Assembly (NCBI GenBank): GCA_001874305.1
Contig: MPCU01000002.1
Coordinates: 310,001 to 374,000, forward strand
Direction of reading: 5' to 3'
DNA: 64,000 nt
Source: Bacteriovorax sp. MedPE-SWde
GTDB taxonomy: Bacteria > Bdellovibrionota > Bacteriovoracia > Bacteriovoracales > Bacteriovoracaceae
Made by a program: the position numbers and the translations under genes. The notes below the pieces were generated by a model. It was given only the letters and a program-made list of their open reading frames with translations, did no database searches and was not told the origin of the DNA. Positions 9,134-10,994 of the stretch are shown here, in pieces. Numbering within the stretch: position 1 is the stretch's first letter; every line of letters starts with the position of its first letter.

Positions 9134-10498
9134 ATGAGCGTAAGGCCACAAAATGCTAAAGGTACAAGAGACTTTGGACCTGTCGAAACAAATAGAAGAA
9201 ACTTTATTTTCGATACGATTAAGAAGCATTTTAAAGCTCATGGATTTATGCCAATTGAAACTCCAGCAGTTGAAAACCTTGATGTTCTCACAGGAAAATA
9301 TGGAGAGGAAGGAGATAAGCTTCTCTTCAAGATCCTTAACAGTGGTGACTACTTAAAGAAAGTATCTGATGAAGAGCTACAAGAAAAGAATACGAGATCA
9401 ATGACAAAGAAAATGTGTGATCGTGGTCTTAAGTACGATCTAACAGTTCCCTTTGCACGTTTTGTAGCTAAGAATAAAAATGAAATTGCATTCCCTTTTA
9501 AGAGATTTCAAATCCAGCCAGTCTGGAGGGCCGATAGACCTCAAAAAGGACGTTATAGAGAGTTCTATCAATGTGATGCTGATATTATCGGGACAGAGTC
9601 ACTTCTATCTGAAGTTGATCTCATGCAAATTTATAATGACGCTCTCATTGATCTTGGTATTGAGGGGTTTTCTATAAAGATTAACAATAGAAAAATCCTA
9701 CAAGGCTTTGCATCAAAGATTGGAGCACTCGACAAACTCACAGATATGACTATCGCCATTGATAAGCTAGATAAAATCGGAAAAGATAAGGTCTTTGAAG
9801 AGTTAACAGAGAAGGGTTTTTCTAAAGAACAGCTGACAACTCTTGATCCACTTTTCTCATTAACGGGCTCAAATGATGAAAAACTTGGACAAGTAAAAGA
9901 AATCCTCACTGGTGACGAATTGGGAGAGAAAGGTATTTCAGAACTTGAAGTCATCTTCAACCTGGCAAAGACCTTAGATATTAAAACTCTTGATTTTGAC
10001 GCAACCCTTGCCCGTGGACTCGACTACTACACTGGAGCTATTTACGAAGTTAAGCTTGATGATGGAAGTATGGGGAGTATTGGTGCAGGTGGACGCTATG
10101 ACGACCTCACAAGTCTATTTGGTGTAAAGGAACAACTCTCTGGGGTTGGAATTTCTTTTGGTGCTGCAAGAATTTACGATGTAATGGAAGCTCGCGGTCT
10201 ATTTGAAAATATTGACGCTAGACTTGATGCTCTCTTCATAAACTTCTCTGACGATCTTGCTGCTGATTACATGACAATTGCAACGAGTATGAGGAAGGCC
10301 GGTCACACAGTCGACATCTATCCAAGCTCAGTTAAAATGAAGAAACAAATGAATTTCGCAAATAAGCGCGGTGTAAAATACGCTGTTTTTCTTGGTCAGA
10401 GCGAAAAAGAGTCTGGAGTCGTAAAAGTTAAAAATATGGATTCAGGTGAAGATCGAGAAATAAATATTGAGGAATTATCAAAAGACTTTAAATTCTAA
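9134..10498 (+). CDS. hisS: Histidine--tRNA ligase
   Basis: This is a class II aminoacyl-tRNA synthetase of 454 residues. Motif 1 lies near the N-terminus, motif 2 in FQIQPVWRADRPQKGRYREFYQ and nearby residues, and the histidine-binding motif LARGLDYYTG is present. The C-terminal anticodon-binding domain follows (DALFINFSDDLAADY onward). It charges tRNA-His in the cytoplasm. GGAG lies ahead of the ATG. The gene stands alone and shares a bidirectional hairpin terminator with the convergent histone gene. Confidence 0.96.
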   Translation: MSVRPQNAKGTRDFGPVETNRRNFIFDTIKKHFKAHGFMPIETPAVENLDVLTGKYGEEGDKLLFKILNSGDYLKKVSDEELQEKNTRSMTKKMCDRGLKYDLTVPFARFVAKNKNEIAFPFKRFQIQPVWRADRPQKGRYREFYQCDADIIGTESLLSEVDLMQIYNDALIDLGIEGFSIKINNRKILQGFASKIGALDKLTDMTIAIDKLDKIGKDKVFEELTEKGFSKEQLTTLDPLFSLTGSNDEKLGQVKEILTGDELGEKGISELEVIFNLAKTLDIKTLDFDATLARGLDYYTGAIYEVKLDDGSMGSIGAGGRYDDLTSLFGVKEQLSGVGISFGAARIYDVMEARGLFENIDARLDALFINFSDDLAADYMTIATSMRKAGHTVDIYPSSVKMKKQMNFANKRGVKYAVFLGQSEKESGVVKVKNMDSGEDREINIEELSKDFKF

Positions 10499-10509: not shown

Positions 10510-10540
10510 AAAAAAAAAGGCTCCGTAAGGAGCCCCTTTA
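10510..10540 (-). terminator. Terminator between histone gene and hisS
   Basis: A perfect GGCTCC/GGAGCC stem (10519-10534) with a four-base loop is flanked on the minus-strand exit by nine U (10518-10510). It therefore terminates the histone transcript strongly. In the plus direction the tail is CCTTTA, so it serves hisS weakly. Confidence 0.85.
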
Positions 10541-10843
10541 TTATGACATGATATCGTATGGTCTGATTGTCTTTCTACCGTTAGCTTCACATCTCTTTTG
10601 AGCTTGATCAACTAGCCAGTAAACATATTCATTCATTGCATCTAGAGTATCTGCAGAAACGTTGAATCCCTTACCTTTAAGAGCTTCTTTAGTTTTAGAT
10701 CCAACTAGTAGCATGTCTTTAGCTTTCTTAGCTGTTTTCTTTGCTGGTTTTTTCTTAGCTGCAGCTTTTTTCTTTGGTGCTGCTTTCTTCTTTGGTGCTG
10801 CTTTCTTAGCAGTTGCTTTTTTAGTTGCTTTCTTCTTAGCCAT
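10541..10843 (-). CDS. Bacterial histone with lysine/alanine-rich N-terminal tail
   Basis: Residues 1-42 are an H1-like tail of Lys, Ala and Pro repeats (units of the type APKKKA). Residues 45-99 look like one histone fold: a short helix (TKEALKGKG), a long helix from SADTLDAM to KRCEANG, then GRKTIRPYDIM. The RKT loop and the R90/D97 spacing match archaeal histones and Bdellovibrio HBb (Bd0055); the third helix is cut short, as in HBb. The product should bind and compact DNA. GAGG precedes the ATG. An H1-like or HU-related basic protein is the alternative, but the C-terminal half argues against it. Confidence 0.8.
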   Translation of the reverse strand: MAKKKATKKATAKKAAPKKKAAPKKKAAAKKKPAKKTAKKAKDMLLVGSKTKEALKGKGFNVSADTLDAMNEYVYWLVDQAQKRCEANGRKTIRPYDIMS

Positions 10844-10994
10844 GATAACCTCTTTCCTTTGAGTGATACTAAAATTTCTTATGTACCAATTCTAAAGTCC
10901 ATGAATTAAAGTCGTCAACTTTTTTTCAAATAAAGAACAAAAAACGTAACAAATTGTGATTTATCTCACTAAGAAATATCAGAATGGAGGTACT

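Follow-up and report, generated by a model that had tools for sequence, protein, structure and literature searches.

An unusually long-tailed member of the face-to-face histone subfamily encoded by Bacteriovorax sp. MedPE-SWde

The genome of Bacteriovorax sp. MedPE-SWde (GenBank assembly GCA_001874305.1) encodes a small histone with a long, lysine- and alanine-rich N-terminal tail. Its gene was analysed within a 64,000-nucleotide stretch of contig MPCU01000002.1 (positions 310,001 to 374,000, forward strand), referred to here as the window, and coordinates are those of this stretch unless another contig is named. The coding sequence occupies 10541..10843 on the minus strand, with its ATG at 10843 and its stop codon ending at 10541, and specifies a tailed histone of 100 amino acids from the face-to-face (FtF) class, in which the third helix (alpha3) is truncated. 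On the same strand, a disordered basic tail (residues 1–42; 10718..10843) precedes a histone fold (residues 43–100; 10544..10717). An earlier reading made from the sequence only had described a single histone fold, a GRKTI loop, an R90/D97 pair and a 42-residue tail, and all of these are present in this minus-strand open reading frame (ORF).

The histone gene converges on hisS (9134–10498, plus strand), which it also adjoins in members of the genus, and a putative bidirectional intrinsic terminator stem (10514..10539, assigned to no strand) lies between the two. On the other side, a putative sigma-70-like promoter (TTGACG-18 nt-TAGAAT; 10889..10918, minus strand) was recognised by consensus match only, at 10 of 12 positions, and AGAGG, which resembles a Shine-Dalgarno sequence, sits 5′ of the ATG. 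A chance or antisense ORF is ruled out by these start signals, by homologues in dozens of genomes and by purifying selection on the histone core, where the ratio of non-synonymous to synonymous divergence is 0.04–0.25 among relatives. Initiation at the internal M44, which would yield a tailless protein, was considered and rejected: no good ribosome-binding site is found there and the starts of relatives precede their basic tails. The ATG at 10843 is the sole in-frame start codon 5′ of the fold, and in relatives, too, a start codon and ribosome-binding site are well placed ahead of Lys/Ala/Thr-rich N-termini; a misplaced start is therefore improbable, and the tail is most likely translated. Synonymous divergence in the core (0.33–0.53) is lower than that in the adjoining hisS from the same genomes (0.69–0.78), which fits constraint on codon usage and a high level of expression; the histone is probably well expressed.

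An AlphaFold2 model built on an alignment of 77 relatives is a high-confidence three-helix histone with alpha1 at residues 48–56, alpha2 at 64–87 and a short alpha3 at 95–99. GRKTI corresponds to residues 89–93, and R90 and D97 make up the Arg/Asp (RD) clamp. S49, K50, K52, N71, the run N88-G89-R90-K91-T92 and D97 are invariant in the 77 sequences. The two points on which the sequence-only reading had made its proposal depend, a three-helix histone fold and survival of the RKT/Asp pair among homologues, are thus both borne out. No Pfam match to the protein rose above any curated cut-off, because the core is short and divergent. About one-fifth of relatives (L009, L010, L013, L087–L095 and others) carry a three-residue insertion in the L1 loop between alpha1 and alpha2 (KGSGKxTFNVS in place of KGKGFNVS), which could alter contact with DNA.

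Two kinds of bacterial histone come into question as the nearest kin of this core. FtF histones form a tetramer with conserved R48, N52, R54, T56 and D61, the first two of which are lacking in the bacterial dimers typified by HBb (Schwab et al., 2024; PMC11390915), and in HLp, an FtF histone from Leptospira perolatii, the conserved tetramer contacts are R49, N53 and R55 (Hu et al., 2025; PMC12701072). The FtF signature is complete in the window protein (R84, N88, R90, T92, D97); among the 77 sequences, N88, R90, T92 and D97 never vary, while position 84 is Arg in 59 and Lys in 18. The model likewise has the truncated alpha3 (3–4 residues in FtF histones) and the shortened alpha2 of that class. 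A sequence search of the Protein Data Bank (PDB) returned HLp first (9qt0, E-value 2.9e-13), then HBb (8cmp, 3.1e-5) and the FtF histone HTkC (9f2c, 9e-4), and a family profile gave an identical order (1.6e-21, 8.8e-14 and 9.2e-11). Foldseek also ranked HLp first with the window model, at a root mean square deviation (rmsd) of 0.8 and a template modelling (TM) score of 0.93 by target length. Since R84, N88 and R90 match the tetramer contacts, and position 84 is basic and position 88 Asn across the 77 sequences, the protein is, by every feature that a sequence can show, a member of the FtF and not of the HBb-type subfamily. The comparison with HBb drawn by the sequence-only reading was therefore made with the wrong subfamily, as signature residues and sequence matches alike point to the HLp-like FtF histones.

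HBb-type membership is accordingly rejected on the presence of R84 and N88 and on a closest sequence that is HLp rather than HBb, and it is highly improbable that the protein is a tailed histone of the bacterial dimer type, bending DNA in dimeric form. HBb is admittedly its second-best match, the VIA-align scores of HBb and HLp lie near each other (Z 7.6 against 8.0, the latter over 57 residues; HTkC 7.4; histones of eukaryotes and nucleosomal histones of archaea below 6), and the RKTxxxxD motif with Lys after the clamp Arg is shared with bacterial dimers. Yet HBb is far weaker by sequence and by profile, and it has Ser and Asp where the window protein has R84 and N88, positions that are basic and Asn, respectively, in all 77 relatives. 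The same genome has, moreover, a separate HBb-like histone gene, L002 (G000:C14:140034-140201, minus strand), which matches HBb at 5e-13 and HLp at 1.3e-5 and carries Ser and Asp at the FtF positions. As a separate observation, a mixed-charge Lys/Glu-rich stretch of about 44 residues precedes the HBb-type fold of L002.

What sets the window protein apart within the FtF subfamily is its tail, which consists of 21 Lys, 14 Ala, three Thr, three Pro and the initial Met, holds no acidic residue and carries a net charge of +21, while the 58-residue core has a net charge of only +1 and an isoelectric point of 8.1. AlphaFold2 assigned the tail a predicted local distance difference test (pLDDT) score of 50–54, which predicts disorder. 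Tail length was compared among 94 distinct relatives, where it ranged from 2 to 42 residues, the window protein having the longest (the next measured 37 and 36). Of the 94, 40 have a basic tail of at least 12 residues. In these 40, which were chosen by a net charge of at least +6 and whose composition statistics are somewhat biased by that choice, the fraction of Lys plus Arg is 0.51 (standard deviation 0.05), length correlates with the number of basic residues (r = 0.94), and Asp, Glu and aromatic residues are absent from every tail. Tails of this kind are also present in Acidobacteriota and Krumholzibacteriota and in a single record that bears the label Zetaproteobacteria. A search of the genome with the tail on its own matched the window gene alone, which is weak evidence from a low-complexity query.

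Bacterial FtF histones, which have been reported from the class Bacteriovoracia among others, are already known to carry tails commonly, the majority of them with positive charge (Schwab et al., 2024; PMC11390915); beyond that mention of the class, we found nothing in the literature on Bacteriovorax histones. The sequence-only reading took the bacterial histones known so far to be short and to lack tails; this view is therefore outdated as far as FtF histones are concerned, and with it goes the claim of novelty. The window protein is an unusually long-tailed example of a known subfamily rather than a new kind of histone.

The DNA encoding the tail contains an 18-bp tandem repeat (10742..10807, minus strand; 3.7 copies, 87% match) that specifies the repeated peptide (A)APKKK, which suggests that the tail grew by repeat expansion. 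More generally, we infer that tail length shifts through in-frame expansion and contraction of short Lys/Ala-rich repeats. Such repeats, together with the wide range of tail lengths and a core tree that requires at least 12 switches between tailed and short states (although that tree, built on a short core, is poorly resolved), might be taken to mean that the long tail reflects near-neutral slippage in repetitive sequence and matters little for function. We regard this as unlikely, given that tails free of acidic and aromatic residues and confined to a narrow Lys plus Arg fraction speak against drift, as does one well-supported clade (99/93) of 21 Bacteriovoracia sequences, a sister paralogue group that is wholly short-tailed. 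All six genomes of the genus, furthermore, have tails of at least 19 residues. The tail appears to be selected for bulk charge rather than for sequence.

With subfamily and tail considered together, we propose with considerable confidence that the protein is a nucleoid-associated FtF histone that would form an HLp-like tetramer and hold DNA with unusually long Lys/Ala/Pro tails. The HLp tetramer wraps approximately 60 bp of DNA (PMC12701072). By homology, four chains of the window protein would assemble into an HLp-like torus, and this would use its alpha1 and L1/L2 surfaces to wrap a similar length of DNA, about 60 bp, in a non-specific manner. The four tails, with a combined charge of about +84, would neutralise linker or neighbouring DNA and keep hold of it, so that affinity and compaction rise without any preference for particular sequences. 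The lysine-rich tails of linker histone H1, of AlgP-type proteins and of some HU proteins are thought to act in this manner, holding DNA and raising affinity or compaction. Linker or neighbouring DNA is the most likely partner of the tails because they are disordered and carry nearly all of the net charge, and an effect of the tail on the wrapping or compaction of DNA is plausible.

That same concentration of charge in the tail (+21 against +1) could instead mean that the tail serves chiefly for DNA bridging, condensation, phase separation or binding of RNA or polyphosphate, the tetramer acting as a multivalent crosslinker and not as a wrapping spool. Bridging is also allowed by the crystals and simulations of HLp (PMC12701072), and AlgP, an H1-like protein, is reported to act on polyphosphate granules (PMC9239181). 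We hold this only as a tentative alternative: the core contact surface and the tetramer residues are conserved as in HLp, which wraps, and close relatives with tails of 4–7 residues keep the core, whose function is therefore independent of tail length on this scale.

Several observations nonetheless weigh against an HLp-like wrapping tetramer with DNA-holding tails. Fold scores, which come from a single-chain model, separate FtF from dimer histones poorly, so that it is the sequence matches and the signature residues that assign the protein to its subfamily. At three positions of the tetramer contact, where HLp has S52, T61 and F63, the window protein has A87, Y96 and I98, and K54 of HLp, a persistent DNA contact, corresponds to G89. 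The core has a net charge of about +2.1 in tailed and short-tailed relatives alike; the tail therefore does not replace lost core charge, and compensation for a less basic core can be dismissed as the reason for its existence. Finally, the argument for high expression draws on few synonymous sites (approximately 40).

The window histone shares its genome with three genes of the HU/IHF family as well as with L002. Across the six genomes of the genus, the tailed gene is the only FtF histone, and an HBb-like gene is also present where the genome is complete. Identical homologues in named records (L066 and L080 against L009 and L012) indicate that this genus is the one to which Bacteriovorax sp. 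DB6_IX and Halobacteriovorax sp. ARS37 belong. Many Bacteriovoracia genomes contain a pair of FtF histones, of which one is often tailed and the other never carries a long tail (L057/L099, L060/L102, L061/L121, L090/L119, L091/L111 and others); judged by eye, there was no clear pattern between possession of a tail and the presence or absence of a tailless FtF paralogue. The tail of L057 is among the short ones, with 7 residues. Two contigs in a viral collection also encode a histone or histone-like protein. One (L137, 2016–2207) has an FtF histone with a short tail and about 50% identity to the window protein, whose neighbours are a helicase-like gene and a protein containing a very long run of Asp/Glu; the other (L140, 2001–2330) has a histone-like protein (NGRKTVRGWD) whose long basic N-terminal region includes the AT-hook-like KKRGRPKGS.

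Taken alone, the window gene is what one would expect of the FtF class. Its relatives, however, make up a natural series of tail lengths (2–42 residues) on one nearly constant core, so that the role of a histone tail without a known histone code becomes directly testable with natural sequences, and basic tails on bacterial histones resemble a parallel to those of eukaryotic histones. As a speculation to which we give little credence at present, Bacteriovoracia chromatin might contain two kinds of nucleosome-like tetramer, one built from a paralogue whose basic tail is tuned in length from species to species and one from a sister that is never long-tailed. Tail length would then set how far the nucleoid is compacted, perhaps in the course of the predatory cycle, and the tails would have converged on those of eukaryotic histones.

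Tails of linker histone H1 and lysine-rich bacterial proteins such as AlgP contain disordered cationic segments rich in Lys, Ala and Pro. The likeness of the window tail to these, which led the sequence-only reading to call it H1-like, holds for composition but goes no further: there is no common domain, the histone fold being the sole folded domain and the winged-helix domain of H1 being absent; the tail precedes the fold; and its position and origin differ. Closest among characterised histones is HLp (PDB 9QT0-9QT2; PMC12701072), which shares the single fold, the truncated alpha3 and the RD clamp, with R49/N53/R55 equivalent to R84/N88/R90 and 51% identity over the aligned core at the rmsd given above; it differs in having only about seven disordered N-terminal residues, against 42, and K54 and T56 in its L2 loop, where the window protein has Gly and Lys. 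HBb (Bd0055 of Bdellovibrio; PDB 8CMP, 8FVX) shares the alpha3 superfamily, the fold, the RKT loop and the RD clamp, but its counterpart in this genome is L002. HTkC (PDB 9F2C) has the FtF tetramer class in common with the window protein at 39% identity, and archaeal FtF histones are generally tailless (PMC11390915). From the bacterial FtF histones already described, including those of Bacteriovoracia (PMC11390915), with which it shares subfamily, taxonomic class and kind of tail, the only difference found is that its tail is the longest of the 94 relatives sampled.
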